Assembly: GCA_027485485.1 (NCBI GenBank)
Contig: JAIXQY010000041.1
Span: 1-39,610, forward strand
DNA from: Sphingomonadales bacterium
GTDB taxonomy: Bacteria > Pseudomonadota > Alphaproteobacteria > Sphingomonadales > Sphingomonadaceae
Direction: 5' to 3'
DNA: 39,610 bases
In this document: one piece after another, positions 10,177 to 28,355 of the stretch
How the letters are laid out: each line of letters starts with the position of its first letter
Position numbering within the stretch: the first letter of the stretch is position 1
Notes under the pieces: generated by a model
Database searches by the model: none
What the model saw: only the letters and a program-made list of their open reading frames with translations
Told to the model about the DNA's origin: nothing
Translations under genes and position numbers: made by a program

Positions 10177-11261
10177 CCCATCTGCTCGTCACCGGCGGCG
10201 CCGGCTTCATCGGCGCCAATTTCGTGCATTATTGGCGGCGGCATCATGGCGGAGACGCCATCACCGTGCTCGATGCCCTCACCTATGCCGGCAACCGCGC
10301 CAATCTGGAAGGCGCCAACAGCGTCTCATTTGTCCACGGCGACATCCGCGACACCGCGCTGGTGGAACAGCTGCTGCGCGACGGTGGTATCGATACGATC
10401 GTGCACTTCGCCGCCGAAAGCCATGTTGACCGTTCCATCCACGCGCCGGCGGCCTTTGTTGACACCAATGTGATCGGCACATTGTCGCTGCTCACCGCCG
10501 CGCGCGCCGTGTGGCTGGCGGATGGCGGCAAGCCGCACCGCTTCCACCATGTGTCCACCGATGAAGTCTATGGCACGCTGGGCCCCAATGATCCGGCGTT
10601 CAGCGAAACCACCGCCTATGCCCCCAACAGCCCCTATTCAGCCAGCAAGGCGGCGAGCGACCATCTGGTGCGCGCCTGGCACCACACTTATGGCCTGAAT
10701 GTCACCACCAGCAATTGTTCAAACAATTACGGGCCTTACCAGTTTCCGGAGAAGCTGATCCCGCTGTTCCTGATCAACGCGCTGCACGGCCGGCCGCTGC
10801 CGATCTATGGCGATGGCATGCAGATCCGCGACTGGCTGCACGTGGAGGATCATTGCCGCGGGATCGAAGCCTGTCTGATCAAGGGCCGGGTGGGTGAAAC
10901 CTACAACATCGGCGGCGGGGCGGAACTTCCCAACCTGATCGTCATCGAAACCCTGTGTGCTGCCGTGGACGCCGCCTTTGCTGCCGATCCCGGCCTGGCT
11001 GCCCGCTTCCCCGATGCGCCGGCCGCCAGGGGTCTGCCGACGGCCAGCCTGAAGACCTTCGTCACCGATCGTCCCGGCCATGATCGCCGCTATGCCATTG
11101 ATGAAACCAAGGCGCGCGGGGAACTGGGCTATGCCCCGGCCCGCACCTTCGAACAGGGCTTTGCCGAAACGCTGCACTGGTATCTGGCCAACGAAGGCTG
11201 GTGGCGCGCGGTGATGGACGGCAGCTATCGCGATTGGGTGGCGACCAACTACAGCCGCTGA
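10173..11261 (+). CDS. rmlB: dTDP-glucose 4,6-dehydratase
   Basis: 362 residues, an extended SDR. It converts dTDP-glucose to dTDP-4-keto-6-deoxyglucose, the second pathway step. Features are TGGAGFIGANFVHYW near the N-terminus, AAESHVDRSI, STDEVYGTLG with the catalytic Asp-Glu, and the Tyr-x3-Lys in YSASKAASDHLVRAW. NNYGPYQFPEKLIPL and VTDRPGHDRRYAID follow. An upstream in-frame start at 10152 exists, but ATG 10173 overlaps the rmlD stop as ATGA and starts right before the Rossmann fold. It is the last gene of the polysaccharide run in this window. Confidence 0.96.
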   Translation: MTHLLVTGGAGFIGANFVHYWRRHHGGDAITVLDALTYAGNRANLEGANSVSFVHGDIRDTALVEQLLRDGGIDTIVHFAAESHVDRSIHAPAAFVDTNVIGTLSLLTAARAVWLADGGKPHRFHHVSTDEVYGTLGPNDPAFSETTAYAPNSPYSASKAASDHLVRAWHHTYGLNVTTSNCSNNYGPYQFPEKLIPLFLINALHGRPLPIYGDGMQIRDWLHVEDHCRGIEACLIKGRVGETYNIGGGAELPNLIVIETLCAAVDAAFAADPGLAARFPDAPAARGLPTASLKTFVTDRPGHDRRYAIDETKARGELGYAPARTFEQGFAETLHWYLANEGWWRAVMDGSYRDWVATNYSR

Positions 11262-14336: not shown

Positions 14337-15443
14337 GTGGCCGAACAGTTCGGATTCACGCCGTCGCATGACGAAGCGGCACGGCAGGCCTTTGTGGGCA
14401 GCCTGAAGAAGTTCGTGAACTTCGATGTGGAAAGCCAGGTTGGCCGCGTGTTCGATATGCTGGTGGCGGACAGCGAGCAGCCGCCGGCGGACCGCAAGGC
14501 CGCCGCCCAGCTGCTGGAACCGCACCCGCTCTATCGCCTGTGGGGCAGCCTGACCTTTCACAGCCAGAACATGATGTGGGATGCCGTGCAGGCCACCACC
14601 GATCGCACCATCACCGCGGCCGTGGCCCGGTATGAAGCCGCTGCCGCCGCCCCCAGCGCCGGCGGCAGCGTCAGCCTGAGCGAGCAATTGCTGGTCAAAG
14701 CGCCGGTGGCCACCACCGAAATCCACCGCCAGCCCGGCGGTTACTGGCGCGAGCGCCGGCCCAATGATCTGGAAGCCGCGCTGAACTATGCCGGCACCAT
14801 CGAACTGTATCGCAAGGCCAAGGGCATGAGCGCGGGCGGGCCGCCGGCATCCGATGCCATGGGCCGCTTTGTCGCCGCCGTCGCCCGCAAGCACGCGCCC
14901 GATCTGGAACCCCAGGCCATCCTCGACATGGGCTGCGGCACCGGCGAGGAGACGCTGGCCTATAAGCGCACTTGGCCGGCCGCCAGCGTGCATGGCATCG
15001 ATGTGGCGCGGCCGTTCATCCGCTTTGCCCATGCCCATGCCGAAGATCAGGGCGTGGCGGTGCATTTTGCCGAGCGCGATGCCGCCCAAACCGGCTTTGC
15101 CGATGCCAGCTTTGATCTGATCGTTTCGATCATCATGTTCCACGAAACCAGCGCGGCGCAGGTGCAGGATATATTGAAGGAATGCTGGCGCCTGCTGCGG
15201 CCGGGCGGCCTGGTGCTGCACCTGGATGTACCCTATCAGCCGCACCGCATGCCGCTGGTGAAACAGGTGACCAACCATTGGCAGGTGCGCCACAATGGCG
15301 AACCCTTCTGGACCGGCTTTGCCGAACTGGACATGGCGGCCGAGCTTGACCGCGCCGGCTTCGATCCCGCCAGCCGCTTTGCCACCTATGAACAGACCGG
15401 GCCGGCAAGCTATTTCTTCTTCGGCGGCAGGAAGCCCAAATGA
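14337..15443 (+). CDS. SAM-dependent methyltransferase with an unrecognised N-terminal domain (copy A)
   Basis: 368 residues, GTG start with GGGAGAG upstream. Residues 1-150 form a helical domain I do not recognise (DEAARQAFVGSLKKFV, HSQNMMWDAV), followed by the linker motif EIHRQPGGYWRE (about 129-140). From about 190 there is a class I methyltransferase fold: motif I ILDMGCGTGEE (195-205), HGIDVARPFI, FDLIVSIIMFHETS and LLRPGGLVLHLD. It is homologous along its whole length to the gene at 24022 (ARQxF-xSLK-xFV, IHxxPGGY, HETS). It leads a run with a small protein (ATGA overlap) and a PAP/fibrillin-like protein. The methylated substrate is unknown; the accessory cluster suggests a small organic molecule. 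Confidence 0.72.
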   Translation: MAEQFGFTPSHDEAARQAFVGSLKKFVNFDVESQVGRVFDMLVADSEQPPADRKAAAQLLEPHPLYRLWGSLTFHSQNMMWDAVQATTDRTITAAVARYEAAAAAPSAGGSVSLSEQLLVKAPVATTEIHRQPGGYWRERRPNDLEAALNYAGTIELYRKAKGMSAGGPPASDAMGRFVAAVARKHAPDLEPQAILDMGCGTGEETLAYKRTWPAASVHGIDVARPFIRFAHAHAEDQGVAVHFAERDAAQTGFADASFDLIVSIIMFHETSAAQVQDILKECWRLLRPGGLVLHLDVPYQPHRMPLVKQVTNHWQVRHNGEPFWTGFAELDMAAELDRAGFDPASRFATYEQTGPASYFFFGGRKPK

Positions 15444-15745
15444 GCGACACGCAAGACCTGCCCGCCGGCCCGCGCCCCGGCGACCGGCACACCAGCTTCT
15501 TCGCCGATCCGGTCACCGATCATCTGCTGCGCGCGGTGGTGACGCTGGCGGGCGAGCTTTCGGTCACCCGCGACCGGCTGGCCACGGTGGAGGCGCTGCT
15601 GGCGCAGGCCGGCGTGCTGGACCGCAGCGCCGTCGATCACAGCCTGCCCAGCGGCGATGAAGCCCTGGCGCGTGAGGCCGCCCGCCAGAAACTGCTCAGC
15701 GATCTGCTCGCCCCGCTGGTGGCCAGCCTGTCGCGGCCCGCCTGA
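15440..15745 (+). CDS. Small helical protein paired with methyltransferase A (unrecognised family)
   Basis: 101 residues. I do not recognise a family. The conserved core is SFFADPVTDHLLRAVVTLA, then GELSVTRDRLATVEALLAQA, an amphipathic helix likely to self-associate or bind a partner. The protein encoded at 25221 has the same core (FYADP-x2-D, LA-x-E-F-S, RDRL-x-TVE, AG) and the same position, overlapping the stop of a methyltransferase gene by ATGA. The constant pairing suggests a subunit or accessory protein of the methyltransferase. No signal peptide, metal site or catalytic motif is visible. Confidence 0.65.
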   Translation: MSDTQDLPAGPRPGDRHTSFFADPVTDHLLRAVVTLAGELSVTRDRLATVEALLAQAGVLDRSAVDHSLPSGDEALAREAARQKLLSDLLAPLVASLSRPA

Positions 15746-15770
15746 CCCGGATTTTCCAAGGACCCCTGCC

Positions 15771-16442
15771 ATGACCGATCTTGCCAGCCTGAAACAGGCG
15801 CTGCGTGCCGCCATCGATGATTGCCGCCCGGATGGCACCTATGATGATGCCGGGATCGACCGCGTGCATGGCCTGATCGAACAATTGCTACCGCTGAACC
15901 CCACGCCGCGCCCGCTCGATCATCAGGACGTGGTGGAATCGCCGTGGATCTCGCACTTCGCCCAGTTTGGCCCCAAGCACACGGCCGGAAAGCCGATCCA
16001 GCACGTCACCAGCCTGCGCCTGCAAAGCTTCAACGCCTTTCCCGACCTGCCGGTCAAGACGCTGGAAATCAGCCAGGAAATCCGCATCGACGGCGCGCAT
16101 TACAACAATGTGGTGGAGGTGGAGACACCGGACGGTGCCCACCATGCCCGCATCATCACCTGGGGCCGTTATGCCATCAGCCCCGACACACCGCAGCGTT
16201 ATGCGGTGGAATTCTATGCCGTTGAGCTGGTGCCACCCGACGGCGTGAGCGCCGATGCCCTGCGCGCCCAGTTCGGGCTGGAGGCCGATGCCCCGCTGCG
16301 CCGGGAACTCAAGCCGCCGCGCGTGCACAGCGATGTCGTCTATTGCGATGCCGATATGCGCATCAACTATGGCAGCCTGGGCGGGGTCTATGTGCTGAAC
16401 CGACTGCACCGGCCGGGCAAATCGGTGCAGTTTCCAGGCTGA
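15771..16442 (+). CDS. PAP/fibrillin-like (plastid lipid-associated) domain protein
   Basis: 223 residues. The protein resembles the PAP/fibrillin family: an N-terminal helical part, then LNPTPRPLDHQ (about 44-54). An aromatic beta-rich middle follows, with SQEIRIDGAHYNNVVEVE, TWGRYAIS and RYAVEFYAVELVPP. The family-like end VYCDADMRINYGSLGG then VYVLNRL corresponds to the typical D-D-L-R-I-x-R-G-x-x-G-x-x-F-V-L. Members have a lipocalin-like barrel and are thought to bind lipids or hydrophobic small molecules. ATG 15771 has AAGGA upstream; the frame reaches further up inside the previous gene. Assignment is by eye and uncertain. A role in binding a hydrophobic substrate is inference. Confidence 0.5.
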   Translation: MTDLASLKQALRAAIDDCRPDGTYDDAGIDRVHGLIEQLLPLNPTPRPLDHQDVVESPWISHFAQFGPKHTAGKPIQHVTSLRLQSFNAFPDLPVKTLEISQEIRIDGAHYNNVVEVETPDGAHHARIITWGRYAISPDTPQRYAVEFYAVELVPPDGVSADALRAQFGLEADAPLRRELKPPRVHSDVVYCDADMRINYGSLGGVYVLNRLHRPGKSVQFPG

Positions 16443-16553
16443 AGCAGCCGGCACCTCTTCGCACTGCGGTTAAAGTCTGGTGCCGCCATGCGGTGGCGGG
16501 ATGGCCCGGCCTAGGTTGCAATCAAGCCAACACGGATTGGCCGGAGGATGGTT

Positions 16554-17759
16554 ATGGATCAAATCCGCACGCAAGTGGCGATTGCTGGCGCTGGGCCGGT
16601 GGGCACGGTGGCGGCCTATCTGCTGGCGTCACAGGGCATTGATGTCGTGCTGCTGGAGGCCGGGCGCGATTGCGCGCTCGATCTGCGCGCGTCCACCTTT
16701 CACCCGCCCACGCTGGAAATGCTGGATCAACTGGATGTGACGTCCAGGCTGATCGAAATGGGGCTGAAGGCGCCGATCTATCATTTCCGCGAACGCCAGA
16801 CCGGCGACGTGATCGAATTCGACATGAGCGAATTGTCGGACGTGACGCGCTATCCCTTCCGCGTTCAGTGCGAACAATATCATCTGGCGCGCATGTTATC
16901 AGAAGCGGTGCGCGGCCAGCCCGGCGCGCAGGTGTTGTTCAACCACCGCGTGCTGGGCTTTGAACAGTCGGCCAGCGACATCACCATCCACGCCGAAACC
17001 CCGCTCAGCATCATTTCGATCAAGGCGGATTTCCTGATCGCCGCCGATGGCGCCAACAGCGTGGTGCGCAAATGGCTGGGCACCCAGTTTGATGGCTTCA
17101 CCTATCCGGAAAAATTCCTCTGCTACACCACGCGCGAACCGCTGGAGCAGCATTTCAGCAACCTCGCCCATGTGAACTATGTCTCTGATCCGCATGAGTG
17201 GATGGTGCTGCTCAGGGTGCCGTCGCTGTGGCGGGTGCTGGTGCCGGCCTCACCCGAACAGGATGATGGCCTGTTGCTGGCCGATGCCAACAAGGATGAG
17301 GTGTTCACCCGGCTGCTGGGCGATGGCCGCGCCGTGCAGACCGAACATCGCACCATCTATCGCGTGCACCAGCGGGTGGCGCAAAGCTTCCGCAGCAACC
17401 GCGTGCTGCTGATCGGCGATGCCGCGCATCTCAACAACCCCATCGGCGGCTTTGGCATGAACAGCGGCATCCACGATGCCTTCAATCTGGGGGAGCGGCT
17501 GCTCTCGATCTATCGCCATGGCGCCGATGCCGATCATGCCCTCAACGCCTTTGACGTGCAGCGCCGGCGCACCGCTTGCGAGTTCACCCAGGCCCAGACC
17601 ATCCGCAACCTGCAATATCTTGACGCCGGCAAGGGCGGCGAGCACGCCTTGCGCAAGCGCGAGATGGAACAGGTGAGCGCCGATCCGGTGAAGCGCCGCG
17701 AATTCCTGTTGCGCCAATCGATGATCGACTGCCTGGAACGCGAAAAGGAATATGCCTGA
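16554..17759 (+). CDS. FAD-dependent aromatic-ring monooxygenase (PHBH/UbiH type)
   Basis: 401 residues. Group A flavoprotein monooxygenase: dinucleotide fold VAIAGAGPVGTVAAYLLAS (about 8-26), the mid-sequence DG motif LIAADGANSVVRKWLG and the FAD-ribityl motif RVLLIGDAAHLNNPIGGFGM with NSG. Such enzymes use NAD(P)H and O2 to hydroxylate, or sometimes oxidatively decarboxylate, aromatic or other activated rings. GGAGG sits 6 nt before the ATG at 16554, so this start is preferred over 16548. The stop overlaps the next ATG by one base, so it is coupled to the racemase-like gene. It is the first gene of a four-gene run to 20883. Substrate unknown. Confidence 0.8.
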   Translation: MDQIRTQVAIAGAGPVGTVAAYLLASQGIDVVLLEAGRDCALDLRASTFHPPTLEMLDQLDVTSRLIEMGLKAPIYHFRERQTGDVIEFDMSELSDVTRYPFRVQCEQYHLARMLSEAVRGQPGAQVLFNHRVLGFEQSASDITIHAETPLSIISIKADFLIAADGANSVVRKWLGTQFDGFTYPEKFLCYTTREPLEQHFSNLAHVNYVSDPHEWMVLLRVPSLWRVLVPASPEQDDGLLLADANKDEVFTRLLGDGRAVQTEHRTIYRVHQRVAQSFRSNRVLLIGDAAHLNNPIGGFGMNSGIHDAFNLGERLLSIYRHGADADHALNAFDVQRRRTACEFTQAQTIRNLQYLDAGKGGEHALRKREMEQVSADPVKRREFLLRQSMIDCLEREKEYA

Positions 17760-18526
17760 TGCCGGCCGCGCCGCGCCCCAATCCTGATGTGCGCGGCAAC
17801 CGCCGCCTGTTCGGCGTGCTCGGCCCCAGCACCAACACCGTGGTGCAGCCCGATTTTGACGATATGCGGGTGCGCGGCGTCACCAATCATTATTCGCGCA
17901 TCGTGGTGCAGGATGCGCAGGCCATTTCCGATGAGACGTTCATGGCCGGCACGCTGGAAATCTCGCGCAACACCATCGATGCGGTGCGCGGCGTGCTCAC
18001 CTGCAATCCGGATTATCTGGTGATGGGCATGTCGGCCGTCACCTTCTATGGCGGGGCGGCCGGCGCGCAGACATGGCGCGAGAATATCGAGCGGGAGGCC
18101 GGCCTCAAGCTCTGCACCGGATCGCAATCGCTGATCGAGGCGTTCAACGCCTATGGCGGCATCAAGCGCATCGCGCTGATTTCGCCTTATTATCCGTCTG
18201 CCAACGCCCAGGTGGCCAATTTCATGGCCGATCATGGCATCAGCGTGGTGCGCGACACCTGCCTGCGCTGCCCCAGCTGGACAGCGATTGCCCAGGTGCC
18301 CACTGCCAACCTGCGCCAGGAGCTGAAGCTGCTGGACGGCGATGATGTGGATGCCATCGTGCAGGTTGGCACCAATCTTTCGATGGTGAAACTGGCGGCG
18401 GCGGCCGAGCTGTATCTGGGCAAGCCGGTGATTGCCATCAACACCGCCACCTATTGGAACGCCCTGCGCCAGAACGGCATCACCGATCAGCTGGACGGTT
18501 TCGGCCGCCTGCTCGCAGATTTCTGA
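17759..18526 (+). CDS. Asp/Glu racemase superfamily protein (arylmalonate decarboxylase/maleate isomerase-like)
   Basis: 255 residues. The N-terminus RLFGVLGPSTNTVVQPDF is the hallmark of the maleate cis-trans isomerase/AMDase branch. Later motifs are YLVMGMSAVTFYGG (87-100), RIALISPYYPSANAQV (137-152), DAIVQVGTNLSMVKL (198-212) and GKPVIAINTATYWNAL. In this superfamily two Cys act as acid and base. Here the first site reads G90-M-S, as in AMDase where it is Gly, and the second reads V-G204-T-N-L where maleate isomerase has S-C-T-N-L. Both Cys therefore seem absent, so racemase or isomerase chemistry by the usual route is doubtful. Its neighbours are a ring monooxygenase and an amidohydrolase-like deacetylase. 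Confidence 0.7.
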   Translation: MPAAPRPNPDVRGNRRLFGVLGPSTNTVVQPDFDDMRVRGVTNHYSRIVVQDAQAISDETFMAGTLEISRNTIDAVRGVLTCNPDYLVMGMSAVTFYGGAAGAQTWRENIEREAGLKLCTGSQSLIEAFNAYGGIKRIALISPYYPSANAQVANFMADHGISVVRDTCLRCPSWTAIAQVPTANLRQELKLLDGDDVDAIVQVGTNLSMVKLAAAAELYLGKPVIAINTATYWNALRQNGITDQLDGFGRLLADF

Positions 18527-18538
18527 AGGCCAAAGCCC

Positions 18539-19459
18539 ATGTTCGAATATGATTATGTTCCCCTGCCCCAGCGCAACCCGCTGTGCTGGCCCGGCGGGGC
18601 GCGCGTGGCGCTGCTGTTCACCTTCAACCTGGAAACCTGGGATCTGGTGAAGGATACCGACAAGCCTTATTACGCCGGCGGGCCACCCCTGCTGCCCAAC
18701 GAACTGGCCGGGCGCATCCCGGATTATCCCAACTACAGCTGGCGCGAGTATGGCCAGCGGGTGGGCATCTGGCGCATGTTCGACCTGTTCGACGAACTGG
18801 GCGCCAAGGCCGGTTGCACCACCAACGCCGTCACCTTCGAACGGCGCAAGGCGATGGTGGATGCCTGCTTGGATCGTGGCTGGGAGTTGATTGCCCATAA
18901 TTATGAGCAGGGCGAACTGCTCACCGATTTTCACGACAATCCGGCGGCCGAGCGCGACATCATCCGCCGCTCCATCGCCATGTATGAACAGCATGTGGGG
19001 CGGCGGCCCAAGGTGTGGCTGTCGTCCTCATTGCGCGGCACGCTCAACACGCCGTCGATCCTGGTGGAGGAAGGCTTCAAGGCCTATTGCGACATCATGA
19101 ATGATGATCAGCCCTATATGATCCGCACCGATGCCGGGCCGATCGTGGCGACGCCTTATTCCAACGTGATCAATGATTTCACCATCCTCACCCGCAACGC
19201 CCGCACCACCGATGAATATCGCGATATCCTCATCGAGGAACTGCGCGTGCTGCACCAGGAGGGCGCGAAAACCGGCCGCATCATGAACATCGGCCTGCAC
19301 CCCCATGTGTCGGGCCGGGCCTATACGATCCGGGCGCTGCGCGAATTCATCCAATATGCGCAAAGCCTGGATGGCATCTGGTGGGCCACCCGTGGAGAAA
19401 TCGCTGATTGGTATGTTGCCAACCACGAAGCGCATTTCCCCGGCCAGCTGGGCGGCTGA
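18539..19459 (+). CDS. Polysaccharide-deacetylase-family hydrolase (PuuE allantoinase-like)
   Basis: 306 residues with a NodB-like barrel. Signatures are RVALLFTFNLETWD (about 23-36), YSWREYGQRVGIWRMFDL, WELIAHNYEQGELL, RPKVWLSSSLRGTLNTP and LHPHVSGRAYTIRALREFI. The YSWREYG and HPHVSGRA patterns belong to the PuuE/cyclic-imide-type subgroup that hydrolyses C-N bonds in rings such as allantoin, rather than to chitin or peptidoglycan deacetylases. There is no signal peptide, so it acts in the cytoplasm. GAAGG lies before the ATG. With the racemase-like and isochorismatase-like genes nearby, cleavage of a cyclic amide or imide is a plausible but unproven role. Confidence 0.75.
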   Translation: MFEYDYVPLPQRNPLCWPGGARVALLFTFNLETWDLVKDTDKPYYAGGPPLLPNELAGRIPDYPNYSWREYGQRVGIWRMFDLFDELGAKAGCTTNAVTFERRKAMVDACLDRGWELIAHNYEQGELLTDFHDNPAAERDIIRRSIAMYEQHVGRRPKVWLSSSLRGTLNTPSILVEEGFKAYCDIMNDDQPYMIRTDAGPIVATPYSNVINDFTILTRNARTTDEYRDILIEELRVLHQEGAKTGRIMNIGLHPHVSGRAYTIRALREFIQYAQSLDGIWWATRGEIADWYVANHEAHFPGQLGG

Positions 19460-19461
19460 TC

Positions 19462-20883
19462 ATGGTGCCGGCGGCGCGCGTGGTGCGCGGCAATCAGGTG
19501 GATGCGGCCATCACCGTGCCGGTGGTGATCGTCGGCGGCGGCGCCACCGGCCTGTGTGCGGCGCTGGCCGTGCGCGATGCCGGGGTGGATGTGCTGGTGA
19601 TCGAACGCGATCGCCAGCCGATGGGCACCACCGCCATGTCCACTGGGCTGATCCCGGCCGCCGGCAGCACGCTGCAACACGCCGCCGGCGTTGCAGACAG
19701 CGCCGACCTGTTCGCACGCGACATTGCCACCAAGGCCAAGCACAAGGTGGATCAGGCGCTGGTCCAGCGTTTGGCAGAAGAATCCGCGGCCACCATCGAT
19801 TGGCTGGTGGAGCGGCACGGCGTGGCGCTCAGCCTGGTGGACGGCTTCATCTATCCCGGCCACTCGGTGTTGCGCATGCACGGCATGCCGGGCCGTTCAG
19901 GCGGGGAATTCATGGGCGCACTGGCCAATGCCTGCGCCGCGGCCGGGGTGGATATGCTGACGGACTCCGTGGTGGATACGCTTCATGTCTCCCACGAAAA
20001 CCGGGTGATCGCTGTTGGCATCGTCCACCCCGATGGCGCGCGCGAGGTGATCGGCTGCGGCGCGCTGATCCTCGCCTGCTGCGGCTTTGCCGGCAATCAG
20101 GCGATGGTGCGCGATCTCATCCCCGAACTGGAACATGCCACCTTTCACGGCCACCCCGGCAACAAGGGCGATGCCATTGCCTGGGGCCAGGCGCTGGGCG
20201 CGGCCATGGCCGATCTGGCCGCCTATCAGGGCCATGCCGGCCTGGCCGCCGGGCATGGCATCCCGATCTTGTGGCCGTTGATCACCGAAGGCGGTATCCA
20301 GGTGAACCGCGCCGGGCAGCGTTTCGCCAACGAAGCCGCCGGCTATTCCGAACAGGCGGTTGAGGTGCTGCGGCAGGAGGGCCACGTCGCGTGGAGCGTC
20401 TATGACGCCGCCCGCCACCGCATCATGCTGCAATTCGATGATTACCAACAGGCGCTATCGGCCGGCTGCATCCTCACCGCCGACAGCCCCGAAGCGCTGG
20501 CGGCGCTGGCCGGCATTGATGCCGCCGGGCTGGCCGCCACCATTGCCGAAACCCACGCCCTGGTGGCCAGCGGCGCGCCCGATCGCTTCGGCCGCAGCTT
20601 TGCCGGCAAGGCCCCGCTCACCGCGCCCTTCCACGCCGTGAAGGTGACGGGCGCGCTGTTCCACACCCAGGGCGGGCTTGAGGTGGATGGCGATGCCCGC
20701 GTGCTCGATGGCCAGCGCCGGCCCTTCCCCAATCTTTATGCCGGCGGCGGCGCGGCGCGCGGCATCTCCGGCCCCGGTGCCGATGGCTATATGGCCGGCA
20801 ATGGCCTGCTCACCGCGACCACGCTGGGCCGGCTGGCCGGGCGCCACGCCGCCCTCAGCGCAGCCCACCCAGATGAGCGATAA
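19462..20883 (+). CDS. FAD-binding-2 family flavoprotein dehydrogenase (copy 1)
   Basis: 473 residues, related to 3-ketosteroid delta-1-dehydrogenases and fumarate-reductase flavoproteins. The FAD fold is VPVVIVGGGATGLCAALAV (about 19-37), then ERDRQPMGTTAMSTGLIPA. The C-terminal FAD segment is HTQGGLEVDGDARVLDG, LYAGGGAARGISGPGADG and YMAGNGLLTATTLGRLAG. These enzymes oxidise or reduce C-C bonds next to carbonyls. It is paralogous to the minus-strand gene at 22515. The ATG 19462 follows the deacetylase stop by 2 nt; upstream frame extension lies inside that gene. Its 3' end overlaps the convergent isochorismatase gene by 29 nt. Confidence 0.78.
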   Translation: MVPAARVVRGNQVDAAITVPVVIVGGGATGLCAALAVRDAGVDVLVIERDRQPMGTTAMSTGLIPAAGSTLQHAAGVADSADLFARDIATKAKHKVDQALVQRLAEESAATIDWLVERHGVALSLVDGFIYPGHSVLRMHGMPGRSGGEFMGALANACAAAGVDMLTDSVVDTLHVSHENRVIAVGIVHPDGAREVIGCGALILACCGFAGNQAMVRDLIPELEHATFHGHPGNKGDAIAWGQALGAAMADLAAYQGHAGLAAGHGIPILWPLITEGGIQVNRAGQRFANEAAGYSEQAVEVLRQEGHVAWSVYDAARHRIMLQFDDYQQALSAGCILTADSPEALAALAGIDAAGLAATIAETHALVASGAPDRFGRSFAGKAPLTAPFHAVKVTGALFHTQGGLEVDGDARVLDGQRRPFPNLYAGGGAARGISGPGADGYMAGNGLLTATTLGRLAGRHAALSAAHPDER

Positions 20884-21484
20884 TCTCGGCCTCTGACACG
20901 ACATCGGCATATTTGGCCTGCATGTCGAACAGATTGGCCTCGTGCGGGCCGGGATGGCGATCGCCGCAGGCATCGCGCACCACGGTGGTGATGAAACCAT
21001 GACTCATCGCATCCACACAGGTGGCGCGCACACAGCCGCTGGTGGTCAGCCCGGTGAGGATCACATTGTCCACCCCCATCGCCGTCAGGGTGGAGGCCAG
21101 CGAAGTGCCGAAAAAGGCGCTGGGATATTGCTTGGAAATCACCAGCTCGTCGGCTTCCGGCGCCAGCCCGGCCGGCCAGGCGCCCATCGGGCTGCCCTTG
21201 AGGAAATAGCGCAAGGGCCGCGCCTTCTGAAAGAAGCGCCCGCCATCCAGCGCCTGGGGATGATGATAGACAACATTGGTGAGGATCACCGGCACGCCAG
21301 CCGCCCGCGCCGCCGCCCGCACCCGCAAGGCCGATGCCAGCGCATCATCCACCCCGGCATAGAGATCACAAGCCGGATCGAAATAGCCTTCGACGAAATC
21401 GATCATCAGCAATGCCGGCTTGGCGCCAAAGCCGGCCTGCCCGCCATAGGCGCGGGCATAATTGGCATCCAGTTCCTGGCTCAT
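20855..21484 (-). CDS. Isochorismatase-fold cysteine hydrolase (N-carbamoylsarcosine amidase-like)
   Basis: 209 residues. The catalytic triad is visible: Asp29 in LLMIDFVEGYFDP, Lys118 in VISKQYPSAFFGT and Cys151 in TGLTTSGCVRATCVDA. The wider pattern NVVYHHPQ, RDACGDRHPGPHEANLFDM and KYADVV fits the N-carbamoylsarcosine amidase/ureidoacrylate/maleamate amidase branch. It should hydrolyse an amide or carbamoyl group, releasing ammonia. GGAGG lies about 9 nt before the ATG at 21484. The frame stays open upstream, but that part is a shadow of the lyase gene. It is divergent from the ICL/PEP-mutase gene across a 132-bp promoter region. Confidence 0.85.
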   Translation of the reverse strand: MSQELDANYARAYGGQAGFGAKPALLMIDFVEGYFDPACDLYAGVDDALASALRVRAAARAAGVPVILTNVVYHHPQALDGGRFFQKARPLRYFLKGSPMGAWPAGLAPEADELVISKQYPSAFFGTSLASTLTAMGVDNVILTGLTTSGCVRATCVDAMSHGFITTVVRDACGDRHPGPHEANLFDMQAKYADVVSEAEIIAHLGGLR

Positions 21485-21616
21485 ATCCGTCCCTCCATCA
21501 CCAACACGGCATAGCGTGGCCATTGGCCGCCGCAAGCGCCAGGTCGCGCCCATGGCCGCGCACCGGACAAAACGGCGGCAGCCGCTGCCGTTGCAGGGGC
21601 AATTGGTTAGCCAGAC
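21485..21616. promoter_or_regulatory. Divergent promoter region, isochorismatase-like and lyase-like genes
   Basis: 132 bp separating two divergent starts; it must carry both promoters. I see no copy of the TATCC-N7-GGATA repeat found elsewhere in the cluster. A loose variant, TGGCC-GCGCACC-GGACA at about 21552-21568, is too weak to call. No -35/-10 pair stands out. Confidence 0.35.
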
Positions 21617-22528
21617 ATGATGACCACCCAGGATAATGCCGCCATGACCAGCGCCCCCGCCCGCCTGCGCCACGCCCTTTCGAACGGCGAATTCTTCCTC
21701 GCCCCCGGCCTGTTTGACATGATCACCGCCAGACTGGCGCAGGCCCAGGGCTTCGCCTTCGGCTATGCCAGCGGCTATTGGCTCACCGCATCGGCCTATG
21801 GCCTGCCCGATGCCGGCATCGCCACATACAGCCAGATGCTGGAACGCATCGAGACCCTGGTGCGGACCGTGCCGGGCATGGCGATCATTGCGGACGCTGA
21901 TACCGGTTATGGCGGGCTGATCAACGTGCGCCACACCATGTTGGGCTATGCCCGCGCCGGGGTGGCCGCGTTGCAGCTGGAGGATCAGGAGTTTCCCAAG
22001 CGCTGCGGCCATAGCCAAGGCAAGCGCGTGGTGCCCACCGGCGACATGGTGGCGCGCATCAGGGTGGCGGTGGAGGCCCGCGACGGCAAGGATGGCCCGC
22101 TGATCATCGCCCGGTCTGACGCCCGCGCCATGGAGGGGATGGACGCAATGCTGCGCCGGCTGGAAGCCTATGCCGCCGCCGGGGCCGACATTCTTTTCCC
22201 TGAAGCGCTGACCACCGAAGCCGAAATGGCGCATGTTGCCGCCCGCCTGCCCGGCCCGGCGATGATGAACATGGCCGATGGCGGCCACACGCCGATCCTG
22301 CCGGCCGCCACCCTGCAGGCCATGGGCTTTGCCGGCGCCATCTTCCCGGCGATGACGGCGCTGGCCGCCGCCGCCGCCAACGAACGCGCGCTGAAAGGCC
22401 TGTTTGAAACCGGCACCAGCCTGAACGAGGGGGTGGAGCTCTACAGCTTTGCCCGCATGTGCAGCCTGCTGGGGTTTGACGAAGTCTATGCCCAGGATGC
22501 GCGCTGGGCGGCCTTCAACCAGCCGTGA
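21617..22528 (+). CDS. Isocitrate lyase/PEP mutase superfamily lyase
   Basis: 303 residues in a TIM-barrel lyase family that cleaves or rearranges 2-hydroxy- or oxo-acids. The metal-binding signature is IIADADTGYGG (90-100). The active-site loop LEDQEFPKRCGH (121-132) corresponds to KKCGH of isocitrate lyases. IIARSDARAMEGMDAML and the GADILFPEAL strand follow. The pattern fits oxaloacetate decarboxylase/2,3-dimethylmalate lyase/2-methylisocitrate lyase-like members rather than true isocitrate lyase, which is longer. An ATG at 21644 with AGGA upstream is an alternative start. The 3' end overlaps the convergent flavoprotein gene by 14 nt. It may handle a C4-C6 acid made by the pathway; inference. 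Confidence 0.8.
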   Translation: MMTTQDNAAMTSAPARLRHALSNGEFFLAPGLFDMITARLAQAQGFAFGYASGYWLTASAYGLPDAGIATYSQMLERIETLVRTVPGMAIIADADTGYGGLINVRHTMLGYARAGVAALQLEDQEFPKRCGHSQGKRVVPTGDMVARIRVAVEARDGKDGPLIIARSDARAMEGMDAMLRRLEAYAAAGADILFPEALTTEAEMAHVAARLPGPAMMNMADGGHTPILPAATLQAMGFAGAIFPAMTALAAAAANERALKGLFETGTSLNEGVELYSFARMCSLLGFDEVYAQDARWAAFNQP

Positions 22529-23888
22529 TCGCCGCCGCCGAAAGGCCGGCAATCCGGCCCATGCTGATCGCCGATCCCAGCCCCATTGCCGGCAGATAAC
22601 CCCACCAAGACGGGCCGGACACGCCGCGCGCCGCGCCGCCGCAGGCCAGCAGATTGGCAAAACGCCCGCCATCGCGCCGCAGCACCCGCGCGCTGCCATC
22701 AATCTGCAAGCCGCCTTGCGTGTGATAAATCGCGCCGCACACGCGGATGGCCAGCACCGGCCAGGCCGGCGGCTGCGCCGCGGCCCAGTCGCGGCCCTGC
22801 GCATCGGCGCGGCCAGCGCCGGCCGCCGCATGGGCATCGGCCAGCGTGGCCGCCAGCACCGCCGCATCGGCCCCGATCATCGCCGCCAGCGCCGCCGCAT
22901 CGCCCGCGCTGCGCACCGCACCCGAAGCCTGCAGGGCGCGGGTTTCGGGGATATAGTCGTTCAACTGCGCAATCCGCCCATCCAGCAGCACCCAGGCCAC
23001 GCCATCGGGCTGCGCCAGCACCGGGTGCACCATGCCGGCAATATCCGTCACTTCGTTGGTGAAGCGCTGGCCCAGCCGGTTGACGATGATGCCACCTTCC
23101 ACCAGCACGCCGGGCGGCACGGTGATGCCGTGGGGATCGGCCAGCATGGCATAGCCCTGATAACTGCCCATATCACCCAGCGCCGCGCCGGCCTGCGCGC
23201 CCAGCCAGATGCCGTCGCCCATATTGCCTTCGTGGCCATTGTGGCGGGCCGCCGCCGCCTCCGGCATGTGCGCCGCCACCTGTTCATGATTGGCGGCAAA
23301 ACCGCCGCTGGCGAGGATCAGCGCGCCGCAGCCAATGGCTTCGCGGCTGCCATCGGGCCGCTCCACCACGATGCCGTCAATCCGGTCACCGTCGCCCACG
23401 AGCTCCACCAGCCGCGCCGGCATCAGCACATCAACACCGGTTTCGGCCAGCTTGGCGTGCAGAAACTGTACCATGTCGGCACCGCCATGGTGCAGCCAGC
23501 CGTGCAGCCGCTGCCGGCTGTGGCCATAAGCCGCCCGCGCGCCGGTATCGAGCACCAAGGGATAGCCCAGCACATCGCACAGCCAGTCCGCCGCCGGGCC
23601 AGACGCATCGGCCACCGCCCGGGCAATCACCGGATCGGCTGCCCCGCGCGTCTTGGCCATGATATCGGCAAACAGCGTGTCGGCATCATCGTCGATGCCG
23701 GCCGTCGCTTGCGCCCGCGTGCCGGCGGCGCACATCAGCCCCTGCGACATGGCGGTGGTGCCGCGCGCACTGGCATCGCGCTCCACCAGCAGCACCTCGG
23801 CCCCGGCCAGCCGCGCCGACAGCGCCGCCACCGCACCAGCGGCACCGCCCCCCACCACGATCACCGGCACCGAAAATTCAAAGTCCAT
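22515..23888 (-). CDS. FAD-binding-2 family flavoprotein dehydrogenase (copy 2)
   Basis: 457 residues from the ATG at 23888; the open frame beyond it is not coding-like for this family. The FAD fold is VPVIVVGGGAAGAVAALSA (about 7-25), then ERDASARGTTAMSQGLMCA. The C-terminal segment is HTQGGLQIDGSARVLRRD, then LACGGAARGVSGPSWWGY and MGLGSAISMGRIAG. These parts align closely with the gene at 19462, so the two are paralogues of the ketosteroid-dehydrogenase/fumarate-reductase-flavoprotein family. The middle, substrate-binding parts differ, suggesting different or successive substrates. It is divergent from the methyltransferase B operon and shares the promoter region with the operator-like repeat at 23939. 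Confidence 0.78.
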   Translation of the reverse strand: MDFEFSVPVIVVGGGAAGAVAALSARLAGAEVLLVERDASARGTTAMSQGLMCAAGTRAQATAGIDDDADTLFADIMAKTRGAADPVIARAVADASGPAADWLCDVLGYPLVLDTGARAAYGHSRQRLHGWLHHGGADMVQFLHAKLAETGVDVLMPARLVELVGDGDRIDGIVVERPDGSREAIGCGALILASGGFAANHEQVAAHMPEAAAARHNGHEGNMGDGIWLGAQAGAALGDMGSYQGYAMLADPHGITVPPGVLVEGGIIVNRLGQRFTNEVTDIAGMVHPVLAQPDGVAWVLLDGRIAQLNDYIPETRALQASGAVRSAGDAAALAAMIGADAAVLAATLADAHAAAGAGRADAQGRDWAAAQPPAWPVLAIRVCGAIYHTQGGLQIDGSARVLRRDGGRFANLLACGGAARGVSGPSWWGYLPAMGLGSAISMGRIAGLSAAAITAG

Positions 23889-23938
23889 GCACCCGCCCCT
23901 ATGCCCCGCAGCCACCGCCAATCGTCCGCTTGCCGCAT

Positions 23939-23957
23939 CTGTCCACCCAGTGGATAG
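23939..23957. promoter_or_regulatory. Putative IclR-family operator, site 1 (CTGTCC-N7-GGATAG)
   Basis: The inverted repeat CTGTCCACCCAGTGGATAG has one mismatch in its 6-bp arms. It matches the spacing and sequence of the repeats before iclR (30808) and the TonB-receptor gene (31678). It lies in the divergent promoter region of the flavoprotein (minus) and methyltransferase B (plus), 64 nt before the latter start. An imperfect 8-bp hairpin (23968-23987) follows it. Confidence 0.6.
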
Positions 23958-24021
23958 TGATGGCGCGCTGCTGCCCAGCGGCGGCAGGGCGGGCCAGTCT
24001 GCATCCAAAGGAGTGGCGATC

Positions 24022-25224
24022 ATGAACGCGATGCTCAACACATTCCAGCAGGGTGACCATGATGTGCTGCCCAAGGCCGATCATGACGAACGCGCCCGGC
24101 AGGAATTCACCAAAAGCCTGAAAGGGTTCGTGCAATCCGGCCTGCTGCCCGGCCTGGGCCCGGTCTATGCCGCCCGCGCCGCCAAGCGCTTTGAACGCGA
24201 AGCCGGCCGCGCGCCCGCCGACCGCCACGATATCCGCAAGGCGATGGTGGCCGATCCCTATTTCCAGACCTATGCCGCCACCAACCGCATCGCCCAGGAA
24301 CGCATCTGGGACACTGTGATCGACACGATCGAACGGCAACTGCCCGAGATCGAGGCCCGCGCCGCCGCGCTCTCCGCCGCCAGTCGTGCCCCGCTGGAGG
24401 TGCATGATGATTTCCCCACACCGCGTTATGTGACGGCCATCGATATCCATTGCATGCCCGGCGGCTATGCCGAACCCGGCGGCGTGGCAGCCGGCGCGCT
24501 CTATGATCGCGGCGTCTATCTTTACGCCATGGGCTATATGGGCCCCACCAACGACGACATGGGCCGTTCGGTCGCCAATTATATCCGCCGCACCATGCCG
24601 GATTTCAAACCCACAAACATCCTCGACATGGGCTGCACCGTTGGCCATTCCACCCTGCCGTTCAAGGAAGCCTTTCCGGATGCGCACGTGACCGGCATCG
24701 ATGTCGCCGGACCGCAGCTGCGCTATGCCCATGCCCGCGCCGCCGGGCTGGGGCTTGAGGTGGGCTTCCTGCAGCGCAATGCCGAAGCCACGGGGTTTCC
24801 GGATGCCAGCTTCGATCTGATCGTCAGCCATATCCTGCTGCACGAAACCAGCGGCAAAGCGATGCCGGCGATCATGCGCGAATGCCACCGCCTGCTGAAA
24901 CCCGGCGGGGTGATGATCCACGCCGATCTGCCGCCGTTCAACCTGATGGACCCATTCACCCAGTTCATTCTGGACAATGAAACCTGGTACAACAACGAAC
25001 CTTTCTGGGGCGCCATGCGCGAGGTGGACCAGATTGCCCTGGCCCAATCGGTGGGCTTTGCCGAACCGCGCTTCGATACCGCGCCGATGGCGATCATGGA
25101 ATTTGCCGCAGCCGCCGAAAGCTACAGCAGCGATGCCGCCGAGGCCCTGGCGGAGCGCGAGTTCACTGCCGGCGAATATGCCCCCGGCGGCGGCTGGGAA
25201 GTGTTGATTGGAGTCAAATCATGA
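24022..25224 (+). CDS. SAM-dependent methyltransferase with an unrecognised N-terminal domain (copy B)
   Basis: 400 residues; AGGAG lies 8 nt before the ATG. Domain order matches the gene at 14337: a helical N-terminal domain (HDERARQEFTKSLKGFV, ATNRIAQERIWDTVI), the linker DIHCMPGGYAEPGG (about 141-154), then a class I methyltransferase fold. Motif I is ILDMGCTVGHST (200-211), where the usual G-x-G is broken by T-V. VTGIDVAGPQLRYA, FDLIVSHILLHETS and LLKPGGVMIHADLP follow. It leads a five-gene run: methyltransferase, small protein, VAO oxidoreductase, MFS carrier and monooxygenase. The changed motif I could alter SAM binding. Substrate unknown. Confidence 0.72.
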   Translation: MNAMLNTFQQGDHDVLPKADHDERARQEFTKSLKGFVQSGLLPGLGPVYAARAAKRFEREAGRAPADRHDIRKAMVADPYFQTYAATNRIAQERIWDTVIDTIERQLPEIEARAAALSAASRAPLEVHDDFPTPRYVTAIDIHCMPGGYAEPGGVAAGALYDRGVYLYAMGYMGPTNDDMGRSVANYIRRTMPDFKPTNILDMGCTVGHSTLPFKEAFPDAHVTGIDVAGPQLRYAHARAAGLGLEVGFLQRNAEATGFPDASFDLIVSHILLHETSGKAMPAIMRECHRLLKPGGVMIHADLPPFNLMDPFTQFILDNETWYNNEPFWGAMREVDQIALAQSVGFAEPRFDTAPMAIMEFAAAAESYSSDAAEALAEREFTAGEYAPGGGWEVLIGVKS

Positions 25225-25556
25225 GCCTGCGCCGCGATGCGCGCGGCAAGCGGCCGCAATTCTATGCCGATCCCGCCATGGATCAGGCGATGGCGATGAT
25301 CCTGGTGCTGGCCGAGGAATTTAGCGCGCTGCGCGACCGGCTCGACACGGTGGAGCGGGTGGCCAGCGCGGCGGGGCTGGCCGAGGCGGTGGAAGCCTAT
25401 GTGCCGACCCAGGATGTGCTGGAACTGCGCGAACAGCGGCGGCAGGCGTTTCTGGCCCGGCTCTATTATCTGGCCCGCAAGGATGCCAGCGATGCCGCCG
25501 AACACAGCACGCCGGCCAGCTTTGTTGCCACCATCAACGAAATTGCCGAGGGCTGA
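25221..25556 (+). CDS. Small helical protein paired with methyltransferase B (unrecognised family)
   Basis: 111 residues, paralogous to the protein encoded at 15440. The shared core is PQFYADPAMDQAMAMILVLA with EEFSALRDRLDTVERV and AAG. After it comes a charged helix, LELREQRRQAFLARLYYLAR. It overlaps the stop of methyltransferase B by ATGA, exactly as its paralogue does, so the pairing has been kept through duplication or transfer. It has no signal peptide and no catalytic motif. A methyltransferase partner or substrate-carrier role is a guess based on pairing alone. Confidence 0.68.
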   Translation: MSLRRDARGKRPQFYADPAMDQAMAMILVLAEEFSALRDRLDTVERVASAAGLAEAVEAYVPTQDVLELREQRRQAFLARLYYLARKDASDAAEHSTPASFVATINEIAEG

Positions 25557-25560: not shown

Positions 25561-27132
25561 ATGGCAAGCATGGCGGTGGCCGGCACGCGCCTGATCGACA
25601 GGCTGGCCGATATTGTCGGGGCCAGCCATCTGCTCACCGACGAGGCGGAGCGGCGCTTTCAGGCCACCGATGTGTACAATGCCGGCGAACTGCCGCTGGC
25701 GGTGGTGCGGCCGGGCAGTGTGGCGGAACTGCAGGCGGTGGTTGCGGCCTGTGCGCAAACCGCCACGCCGATCAGCGTGCGCGGCGGCGGCGCCAGCTAC
25801 ACCGATGGCTATCTGCACCGCAGCGCCGGCGGCATCACCATCGACACCAGCCGGCTGAAGGCGATCAGCATTGATGCGCACAACGGCGTCGTCACGGTGG
25901 AGGCCGGGGTGACCTGGGCCGAACTGCACGAAGCGCTGCGGCCGCACGGGCTGCGCACGCCGTTCTGGGGGCCGTTTTCCGGGCTGGCGGCGACCATCGG
26001 CGGCTCCATGTCGCAAAACAGCATCAGCCACGGCAACGGCGTGTCGGCGGAATCGCTGCTCAACATCGAGGTCATCACCGGCACTGGCGAACTGCTGGCC
26101 ACCGGCAGCGCCGGCAGCGCCAGTGGCGCGGCCTTCTTCCGGCACTTCGGCCCCGATCTGGCCGGGCTGTTCACCGGCGATTGCGGCGCGCTGGGCGTGA
26201 AAGCGCGCATCAGCCTGAAATTGCAGCGCCGGCGCGACGCCTTTGCGGCGGCCAGCTTCAGCTTTGACAGTTTCGATGCCATGCACGAAGCCATCCGCAG
26301 AATCGCCATCGAGGGCGTGGATGATGAGAATTTCGGGCTGGATGCCGCGCTGCAACAGGGCCAGATCGGCCGGAATGATGGCGTGGACGCCAAGGTGGAC
26401 ATCGCCCGCAGCGTGATGAAATCGGCGACGTCGTTCGGCAGCGGGGTGAAAAGCCTGGCCCGCATGGCCATCGCTGGCGACCGGGCGCTGAAGGCCGCCA
26501 ATTATGCCGTGCATTATCTCACCGATGGCGTCGATCAGGCCGATGCCGATGGCAAGATGGCGCTGATCCGGCGGATCGCGGCGGCGCATGGCAGCGAGAT
26601 CGCCAACACCGTGCCGATCGTGGTGCGCGGCATGCCGTTTGCGCCGCTGGCCAATGCGCTGGGCCCCAAGGGCGAACGCTGGGTGCCGATGCACACGCTG
26701 TTGCCGCATGATCGGGTGCCGGCCTTCCATCGTGCGCTGACGGCATACTGGGATGAGCACAGCGCGGAGATGGCCGAGCATGGCATCTTCACCGGCGGGA
26801 TGTTCATGGCGGTGGGGGCTTCGGCCTTTGTTTATGAACCCGCCATATACTGGCCGGATGCGCGCAGCCTGTTTCATGATCGCATGATCCCGGCCGATCA
26901 TCTCGCCAGCCTGCCGGTGCATGCCGCAGCGCCCGCCGCCCGCGCGGTCGTGGCGCGGTTGAAGCAGGGGGTGATCGATCTGATGCACGCCCACGGCGGC
27001 GCGCATCTGCAGATCGGCAAGGTCTATCCGCTGCTCGAAGGCCGCAACCCGGCCAGCGTGGCGCTGCTGCGGGCGATCAAGGCGGCGCTCGATCCCCATG
27101 GCATATTGAACCCCGGCGCGCTGGGCCTGTGA
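25561..27132 (+). CDS. FAD-linked oxidoreductase of the VAO/PCMH family
   Basis: 523 residues. The FAD-binding domain is PLAVVRPGSVAELQAVVAAC (about 44-63), then PISVRGGGASYTDGYLH, GVVTVEAGVTWAELHEAL and GPFSGLAATIGGSMSQNS. The C-terminal half ends in NPASVALLRAIKAALDPHG and ILNPGAL, the usual end of D-lactate/glycolate-oxidase and vanillyl-alcohol-oxidase-like proteins. No His or Cys for covalent FAD can be assigned with certainty. It could oxidise an alcohol, hydroxy-acid or phenol. The ATG at 25561, 5 nt after the small-protein stop with GAGGG upstream, is chosen. Its TGA overlaps the next start by one base. Confidence 0.8.
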   Translation: MASMAVAGTRLIDRLADIVGASHLLTDEAERRFQATDVYNAGELPLAVVRPGSVAELQAVVAACAQTATPISVRGGGASYTDGYLHRSAGGITIDTSRLKAISIDAHNGVVTVEAGVTWAELHEALRPHGLRTPFWGPFSGLAATIGGSMSQNSISHGNGVSAESLLNIEVITGTGELLATGSAGSASGAAFFRHFGPDLAGLFTGDCGALGVKARISLKLQRRRDAFAAASFSFDSFDAMHEAIRRIAIEGVDDENFGLDAALQQGQIGRNDGVDAKVDIARSVMKSATSFGSGVKSLARMAIAGDRALKAANYAVHYLTDGVDQADADGKMALIRRIAAAHGSEIANTVPIVVRGMPFAPLANALGPKGERWVPMHTLLPHDRVPAFHRALTAYWDEHSAEMAEHGIFTGGMFMAVGASAFVYEPAIYWPDARSLFHDRMIPADHLASLPVHAAAPAARAVVARLKQGVIDLMHAHGGAHLQIGKVYPLLEGRNPASVALLRAIKAALDPHGILNPGALGL

Positions 27133-28355
27133 TGCTCAGCACACGCGCGGAATTCGGCCGGGGCTGGCGCGTGGTGGTGGGCGGAGCCATTGGCGCGGCC
27201 TTTTCCATCTCGGCACTGCCCTTCTACACGCTGGGCGTGTTCGTCAAACCCATTGCGGCTGCCACCGGCTGGAGCCGGGAGGCCATCCAGCTGGGCTTCA
27301 CCGTACAGATGTTCACCCTGCTGGGGATCAGCTGGGCCTGGGGCTGGCTGGTGGATCGCCATGGCGCCCGCCGCGTGGCGCTGCTGTCCCAGATTGGCCT
27401 GGCGGTGGCGCTGGCCGTGCTGCCGCTGCTCGCCGGCTGGCTGGGGCCATCGCTCGCCGGCTGGTATATCGGCTGGGCGCTGGTGGCGCTGCTGGGCGGC
27501 GGCACCGGCCAGGCCACCTGGACGCGCGGCGTGAGCGGCTGGTTCGATACTGCGCGCGGCACCGCGCTGGGCCTCACCCTGTTTGGCACCGGCATTGCCG
27601 CCGTGTTCGCGCCGCCCATCGTCACCGGCATCATCGCCGCATCGGGCTGGCCGATGGGCTATCATCTGCTCGGCGCATCGGTGCTGATCTTCTCGCTGCC
27701 GCTGGTCGCGGCCTGGTTCCGCGATGCGCCGCTGCCGGCCGGCGACATCCAAGCCCTGCCCGGCCTCAGCCGCGGCGAGGCCCTGAAAGATCGCCGCTTC
27801 TGGACGATGCTGCTGGCCTTTTCCACCATCACCTTCGGCGTGGCCGGCATCATCCCCAATCTGGTGCCGCTGCTCACCGATCGCGGCCTCGATGCCGCCA
27901 CCGCTGCCAGCTATGCAGGCATTGCCGGCCTGGCGGTGATGGGCGGGCGCATTGCGGCAGGCATCCTGATCGATCGCATCTGGGCGCCGCTGGTGGCCAT
28001 CGGCTTTCTGGCCATGCCGGCCGCCGCCTGCTTCCTGCTGGTGGGCGACACGCTGGCATCGGGCCCGATCATCGCCCTGGCCGCCGTGTTGGTGGGTCTG
28101 GCGGCCGGGGCGGAGTTTGATCTGGTCGCCTTCATGGCCGGGCGCTATTTCGGCATGCGCAACTATGGCTTCATCTATGGCGTGCAGATCGGCGCCATCC
28201 TGGCCGCCACCGGCATCGCCCCGGCGCTGTTCAGCCGGGTGCAATCGGCCACCGGCAGCTATGACGCGGCGCTGATCACCGCCGGCACCTTGTTCCTCAC
28301 CGCGCCGCTGCTGCTGCTGACACTCGGCCGCTATCCCAAGTTCGCCAATGACTGA
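27132..28355 (+). CDS. MFS transporter, monocarboxylate/oxalate-formate carrier-like
   Basis: 407 residues with about 12 hydrophobic segments. The N-terminal pattern LPFYTLGVFVKPIAAATGWS plus WGWLVDRHGARRVAL (the MFS loop 2-3 motif) fits the monocarboxylate transporter/OFA group. Such proteins move organic acids across the inner membrane. It lies in the methyltransferase B run and overlaps both neighbours (one base upstream, 8 nt downstream). It therefore probably carries the pathway substrate or a product. A GTG at 27129 is an alternative start. Confidence 0.82.
   Translation: MLSTRAEFGRGWRVVVGGAIGAAFSISALPFYTLGVFVKPIAAATGWSREAIQLGFTVQMFTLLGISWAWGWLVDRHGARRVALLSQIGLAVALAVLPLLAGWLGPSLAGWYIGWALVALLGGGTGQATWTRGVSGWFDTARGTALGLTLFGTGIAAVFAPPIVTGIIAASGWPMGYHLLGASVLIFSLPLVAAWFRDAPLPAGDIQALPGLSRGEALKDRRFWTMLLAFSTITFGVAGIIPNLVPLLTDRGLDAATAASYAGIAGLAVMGGRIAAGILIDRIWAPLVAIGFLAMPAAACFLLVGDTLASGPIIALAAVLVGLAAGAEFDLVAFMAGRYFGMRNYGFIYGVQIGAILAATGIAPALFSRVQSATGSYDAALITAGTLFLTAPLLLLTLGRYPKFAND

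Follow-up and report, generated by a model that had tools for sequence, protein, structure and literature searches.

A widespread two-gene module of a methyltransferase family with an unrecognized N-terminal domain and a small helical-hairpin protein

Two methyltransferase-small protein pairs in a Sphingomonadaceae contig

The window analyzed here, a 39,610-nucleotide stretch of a Sphingomonadales bacterium (family Sphingomonadaceae; contig JAIXQY010000041.1 of assembly GCA_027485485.1), encodes two methyltransferases (MT1 and MT2), each adjoined by a gene for a small protein (SP1 and SP2). We find that the methyltransferase (MT) and small protein (SP) families form a real and widespread two-gene module that has no name, and we propose, with roughly even confidence, that each pair is a two-part small-molecule methyltransferase in which the SP docks on helices of the MT and which works inside an uptake-and-breakdown cluster. 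The basic description given by a sequence-only reading of the window holds: the MTs share an N-terminal domain, the SPs belong to one family, both pairs overlap by the same four bases, ATGA, at the positions described (Table 1), and the motifs ARQxF-x-SLKxFV, IHxxPGGY, F-F/Y-ADP and RDRLxTVE are all present in the translations. MT1 and MT2 share 36% identity across 337 aligned positions that include the N-terminal part (E 1e-60), and SP1 and SP2 are 38% identical over 81 (E 2e-13). The genes 3' of the two pairs are unlike, as that reading had also stated, with a PAP_fibrillin-like gene after SP1 and a FAD_binding_4 oxidase gene after SP2.

Protein searches of the source genome with MT1, SP1 and SP2 recovered six MTs and six SPs (the weakest SP match having E 0.0015 with SP1), and these make up six pairs. 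A four-base overlap joins the genes of every pair, ATGA in five and GTGA in one, with the SP gene following the MT gene in five pairs and preceding it in one (contig C186). Because all six MTs are paired, each with a four-base overlap, pairing by chance is excluded.

The pairing extends to relatives. Among 98 genomes from the genus, family and order of the source (itself included; the 17 weakest MT matches omitted), 26 have an SP match and 25 a full-length MT, the sole genome with an SP only (G051) having a borderline match at E 5e-4. An MT match lies within 500 nt of 82 of the 89 SP matches (81 on the same strand), and an SP within 500 nt of 79 of the 88 MT matches longer than 830 nt. We also examined a set of named loci, the 80 best among at least 419 that were confirmed, with members from Sphingomonadaceae, Novosphingobium, Niveispirillum, Nitrospirillum, gammaproteobacterial metagenome-assembled genomes (MAGs), Acidimicrobiia, the cyanobacterium Oculatella and others. 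Here a same-strand SP was found within 300 nt for 70 of 108 MTs (56 downstream, 14 upstream), and, with starts chosen by rule, the four-base overlap is the commonest spacing (27) and a one-base spacing the next (11); a deeper SP profile rescan of the same loci placed a partner within 500 nt of 71 of the 108 MTs and 72 of the 81 SPs. MT and SP matches shared an open frame in none of the 39 loci checked. One possible fusion was considered and rejected: L040, alone among the named loci, has deeply overlapping gene calls, but the two matches are not in one frame and that of the MT ends early, which looks like a frame shift. At wider range, the SP occurs in at least 26 of 385 genomes at class level and at least 4 of 398 at phylum level (source included in both). 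No paper on the pair was among those listed in literature searches that covered DUF1838, small-protein-partnered and heteromeric methyltransferases, plasmid pJE1, strain TomTYG65, the neighboring gene clusters and paralogue expansion.

Co-diversification of the two families

The claim that the pair is kept through evolution is borne out by the neighborhood survey, and the co-diversification of the two families agrees with it. MT and SP tree distances correlate across 77 pairs (r 0.83; the best of 2000 permutations reached 0.21). In 28 comparisons with a second SP from the same locus, the SP adjoining the MT was the better fit in 26; L057 and L107 each supplied one exception. SP presence switches 13 times along the MT tree, against a mean of 42 when shuffled, so it is inherited by clade. 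When SP distance was compared with separate MT regions over 99 pairs, the partial r was 0.41 for the C-terminus, 0.29 for the N-terminal helices, 0.18 for the lid and -0.12 for the core, values that are correlations among related sequences and not contacts.

The two pairs of the window had been described as a duplicated module, and this part of the description did not survive. In a tree built from 140 MTs, most of the sequences around MT1 are from gammaproteobacterial MAGs, with a top identity of 52% (L036), and MT2 lies beside L075 (86% identity) and sphingomonad loci; both are closer to relatives elsewhere than to each other (36 to 39%), and MT1 and MT2 are distinct, long-standing members of the family. 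That one methyltransferase module was recently duplicated in place, as the presence of two similar pairs some 10 kb apart in one window might suggest, is rejected by this tree and in our judgment extremely improbable.

A methyltransferase core with an unrecognized N-terminal domain

Both MTs score far above the cut-off of 27 bits for the Pfam core Methyltransf_25 (MT1, 83.5 bits; MT2, 81.0 bits), and the two divide on PF00891 (Methyltransf_2, O-methyltransferase family 2), MT1 being over the cut-off of 22.3 bits at 24.0 and MT2 under it at 11.8. The N-terminal dimerization domain of Methyltransf_2 was not found in residues 1 to 185 of MT1 or in three other N-termini (Pfam, E 0.1). At that threshold none of the four N-termini, those of MT1, MT2 and two relatives, matched any Pfam family, and the MT1 N-terminal domain had no credible match among PDB sequences (best E 1), in keeping with its earlier description as unrecognized. 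The AlphaFold2 model of MT1 (predicted local distance difference test score, pLDDT, 94.9; predicted template modeling score, pTM, 0.93) has helices at residues 11 to 45 and 64 to 104, then the loop that carries IHxxPGGY, and then the core.

Methyltransferases are the top matches of the MT1 model in a fold search, with Rv2258c, NovO and CouO first and a template modeling (TM) score by query of at most 0.47 among the 50 matches listed. The small-molecule C-methyltransferases NovO and CouO (PDB 5mgz and 5m58), which are among the best fold and sequence matches, are alike in the core domain, but their solved chains of ∼230 residues lack the N-terminal helical domain of the MT. Rv2258c and SibL (PDB 5f8e and 4qvg) do have an N-terminal part of their own and match MT1 with both halves aligned (E 3.3e-12 and 1.1e-10), but the rmsd is near 15 to 17, so the halves are not superposed as one. 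We know of no small partner for any of these four enzymes. The best NCBIfam match is CpaM, the corrinoid protein-associated methyltransferase (NF043040), at 68.4 bits for MT1 and 57.8 for MT2, scores far below the cut-off of 180 that reflect a match to the core only (residues 191 to 297 of MT1 and 160 to 302 of MT2).

Across 100 aligned MTs, the S-adenosylmethionine (SAM) site retains G199 (98 sequences), G203 (100) and an aspartate or glutamate at position 222 (100), and varies at the central glycine of motif I, G201 (T in 36, S in 31, G in 22 and A in 8). Eight residues are invariant: H130, G134, G203, D260, H269, E270, E322 and G341. Since they are unchanged in all 100 sequences, H130, H269, E270 and E322 likely mark the active site of the family, and a metal could be bound by these four side chains, two of histidine and two of glutamate. 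In comparisons with three solved methyltransferases, H269 aligns with a histidine in each (best stretch), E270 is absent from them, and H130 and E322 fall outside the alignments.

The same four residues, invariant while G201 is a glycine in only 22 of the 100 sequences, would also suit a methyltransferase fold put to other chemistry, with SAM as a bound cofactor or with a metal on these residues. SpnF, a [4+2] cyclase of the same fold, is among the fold matches of MT1; SpnF and RdmB are said to be precedents for such a change of function, and the family expands in genomes where its members sit in breakdown-type clusters. We nevertheless regard other chemistry as unlikely, given that the remaining SAM-site residues are conserved and that H269, with an aligned histidine in all three solved methyltransferases, is not special to the family.

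A small protein modeled as a helical hairpin

SP1 is modeled as a hairpin of two helices, with its N-terminus loose (pLDDT 84.6, pTM 0.58). SP1 matched no Pfam or NCBIfam family over cut-off, and the first of 72 family members scanned had no match in either database at E 0.01. Weak, scattered matches among the 72 peak at PspB (two members in Pfam and six in NCBIfam, best E 0.00025), and a kinship with PspB was rejected, the matches being confined to few members and taken as a common coiled-coil pattern; a match of SP2 to NF045973 (18.5 bits against a cut-off of 250) was taken as chance. Searches against PDB sequences gave no credible match (best E 0.15), the fold search with SP1 returned a single, meaningless match (E 6.1), and a viral_contigs search with SP1 found no viral copies. 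No Pfam model was found for either the SP or the added MT domain, nor an NCBIfam model for the SP, and in consequence such genes are annotated as a "methyltransferase" or a "hypothetical protein," plasmid pJE1 being an example.

SP conservation is highest at residues 13 to 58 (2.4 to 2.5 bits) and lowest in the tail at residues 72 to 101 (1.77 bits), which is rich in alanine, arginine and glutamate. These features bear on the idea that the SP is itself the substrate, a peptide or protein modified by the MT, for which the strict gene neighborhood and overlap would speak, as would the presence of LahSB, reportedly a peptide methyltransferase, among the sequence matches. Compared with precursors of ribosomally synthesized and post-translationally modified peptides, the SP shows conserved helices and a variable tail but no core rich in cysteine, serine or threonine, and 63 of the 72 SPs have no cysteine at all (9 have one or more). 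With SP1 modeled as a folded hairpin and SPs far outnumbered by MTs in some genomes, we consider a substrate role very unlikely.

The pairing is preferred, not obligate

The sequence-only reading had proposed an obligate two-part enzyme, and the word obligate has to be dropped, as many MTs have no adjacent SP and some SPs have no MT nearby; the pair is a preferred association. A series of counts weighs against a strict partnership and, to that extent, against the two-part enzyme that we favor. Among the named loci, 37 of the 108 MTs have no SP within 500 nt, 6 of these 37 lying at locus ends. In one alphaproteobacterial genome, G257, 35 of 42 MTs have no found SP within 500 nt and 7 do (11 of its 41 SP candidates having been scored), and an MT lies within 500 nt of 6 of the 7 SPs found. 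Twelve MT-rich regions from three genomes, chosen as such, held 27 MTs and 2 SPs in a full scan, with an SP within 500 nt of 3 of the 27 MTs and both SPs beside MTs. Conversely, 11 of 33 SP loci outside the source genome have no MT within ∼1.5 kb on each side (22 have one), no MT reached E 1e-30 in 4 of 30 SP-positive genomes (26 had one), and on plasmid p1 of Novosphingobium sp. ES2-1 (L156) an SP has no MT within 9 kb (18 kb scanned). The MT and SP trees could also agree in part because linked genes have a common ancestry, it is unusual for a breakdown pathway to include a step that consumes SAM, and enrichment of HyuB near MTs was not shown in G257, where 3 of 8 lie within 10 kb of one, as does 18% of the genome. 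With so many MTs lacking an adjoining SP, the SP is not a strictly one-to-one subunit, unless it acts in trans.

This imbalance is most evident where the MT family has expanded. Four genomes of one alphaproteobacterial family (G126, G257, G432 and G354) carry 42, 42, 64 and 16 MTs and at least 6, 7, 8 and 5 SP matches, respectively; at 42 to 64 copies in genomes of 3 to 4 Mb, the MTs mostly lack an adjoining SP in the parts checked, and one 4.0-Mb genome has at least 64 copies. MT-rich genomes among the named loci include those of L052 (VGES01, 64), L055 (CANJEJ01, 58), L089 (JAQBYN01, 42), L113 (JAGREB01, 33), L043 (JAEUKL01, 26) and L057 (CAJACZ01, 21), and identical coordinates show that L052 belongs to G432 and L089 to G126. 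A broader and, to us, rather doubtful reading of these numbers is that the family is a repeatedly expanded toolkit of enzymes with the methyltransferase fold and a metal to assist them, in which every member is tuned to an organic compound of its own and the SP is a docking subunit shared by several.

Several MT-less SPs have other enzyme genes as neighbors. In L143, the SP gene (1489 to 1986, minus strand) is directly upstream of a FAD_binding_4-like oxidase gene, with an MT beyond another gene. The SPs of L118, L119 and L122 are longer, with a lysine- and alanine-rich N-terminal extension, and have neighbors resembling an acyl-CoA dehydrogenase and a GMC oxidoreductase; no MT lies within 1.5 kb on each side of these SPs. 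A TRAP binding protein adjoins the SP of L131, and an intact-looking SP at 8977 to 9318 of L156 follows a TonB receptor gene. The cases of L143, L118, L119, L122 and L131, which were named by eye from translations, would fit an SP that does not bind the MT and is a general cluster accessory, a regulator or a chaperone that might serve FAD enzymes too. We think it improbable that this is the role of the SP, which co-diversifies with its adjoining MT, fits it better than a sibling SP does and overlaps it by four bases in all six pairs of the source genome; in L143, moreover, the MT is 1.7 kb off in the same direction (SP at G235:C9:360784, MT at 362794).

A possible mechanism

For the two-part methyltransferase, we hypothesize that the MT is a SAM-dependent enzyme of class I whose added N-terminal domain consists of long helices and a lid loop with IHxxPGGY, and that the SP hairpin is co-produced with it through the stop-start overlap. 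The SP would most likely pack on the N-terminal helices and the C-terminal segment of the MT, and in this complex it may stabilize the MT or shape the substrate pocket. Methyl transfer would take place at a site formed by H130 of the lid and H269, E270 and E322 of the core, perhaps with a bound metal, and each paralogue would have a small molecule of its own as substrate, within the uptake-and-breakdown cluster to which it belongs. An analogue of such an arrangement is Bud23-Trm112 (PDB 4qtu), in which a methyltransferase has a small, dedicated activating partner and the core is a fold match of MT1. Trm112 binds zinc, and the substrate of Bud23-Trm112 is rRNA; SP1, in contrast to Trm112, is modeled as all-helical, and the scarcity of cysteine in the SP family does not fit a zinc site of the Trm112 type. 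If the proposal is true, this methyltransferase subfamily, with its own domain and partner and with up to dozens of copies in the genomes of some uncultured bacteria, would represent a so far unrecognized part of bacterial organic-matter processing, and the pairing poses the simple question of whether the SP binds and activates the MT.

Gene surroundings and candidate substrates

The genes between and after the two pairs look like parts of breakdown and uptake pathways, with FAD enzymes, maleate-isomerase-like and allantoinase-like proteins, an amidohydrolase and a transporter among them (Table 1).

Table 1. Features of the window discussed in the text, with scores where given.
Feature	Position	Strand	Remarks
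MT1	14337..15443	+	368 aa, GTG start; class I SAM-dependent methyltransferase fold, unnamed helical N-terminal domain
SP1	15440..15745	+	101 aa; small helical-hairpin protein; ATGA overlap with MT1
PAP_fibrillin-like protein	15771..16442	+	PF04755, 34.2 bits against cut-off 22 (scanned from second codon); 3' of SP1
FAD_binding_3 monooxygenase	16548..17759	+	Nearest solved: PnpA 4.7e-54, HspB 1e-46
Arylmalonate-decarboxylase/maleate-isomerase-like	17759..18526	+	PF17645, 63.3 bits against cut-off 25.9
PuuE-allantoinase-like	18539..19459	+	TIGR03212, 131.7 bits, under cut-off 424.6; solved PuuE 5.1e-29
FAD_binding_2 flavoprotein, flavocytochrome c-like	19465..20883	+	Family match
Isochorismatase-family amidohydrolase	20855..21484	-	Nearest solved: N-carbamoylsarcosine amidohydrolase
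PEP-mutase/methylisocitrate-lyase-family protein	21617..22528	+	PF13714, 122.7 bits against 31.5
Second FAD_binding_2 flavoprotein	22515..23888	-	Family match
MT2	24022..25224	+	400 aa; second methyltransferase, MT1 family
SP2	25221..25556	+	111 aa; SP family; ATGA overlap with MT2
FAD_binding_4 oxidase	25561..27132	+	Directly 3' of SP2; recurrent neighbor of the MT family
MFS transporter	27129..28355	+	Overlaps FAD_binding_4 oxidase gene

Pyridine breakdown, as in that of nicotine, involves HspB, a maleate isomerase and an amidohydrolase. Because relatives of all three recall this route, the neighbors in the window suggest, by analogy, a nitrogen-containing ring or a cyclic amide as the substrate.

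Elsewhere, the commonest families around MTs in 84 loci are FAD_binding_4 oxidases (23), MFS_2 (20) and FAD_binding_3 (13), followed by TonB receptors (11, named by eye), HyuA (11), a second MFS group (11), aldehyde dehydrogenase (10), DUF1838 (10), PuuE-like proteins (10), HyuB (9) and Amdase (8), counts that are not independent, as many loci are close kin, and that rest as a rule on scanning one member per family. The PuuE-like group is named from its member in the window, and the member scanned had no Pfam match. Both HyuB genes of the source genome are on contigs without an MT. Five loci of the MT2 type (L072, L075, L080, L097 and L103) share FAD_binding_4, FAD_binding_3 and PuuE-like genes, three of them also Amdase.

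On plasmid pJE1 (L153), an MT, an SP, two FAD enzymes, HyuA, HyuB, a TonB receptor and an MFS transporter form one cluster, and plasmid pTomTYG65b (L154) carries the matching left part of this cluster, MT and SP included, to the end of the record. The two are sphingomonad plasmids, typed as mobilizable and conjugative, with the same MT-SP breakdown-type cluster. Strain TomTYG65 is named in PMC10653915, in whose main text the word "methyltransferase" does not occur.

Further along the window, two DUF1838-type proteins on the minus strand (29691 to 31736, assigned by clustering, and 35958 to 37031, over cut-off) flank a TonB-receptor-like gene, and the DUF1838 group recurs near MTs of relatives. 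At 6673 to 11261, the window also contains a sugar-nucleotide cluster, unrelated to the MT-SP pairs, with dTDP-rhamnose-type genes beside a FrhB/FdhB-like protein.

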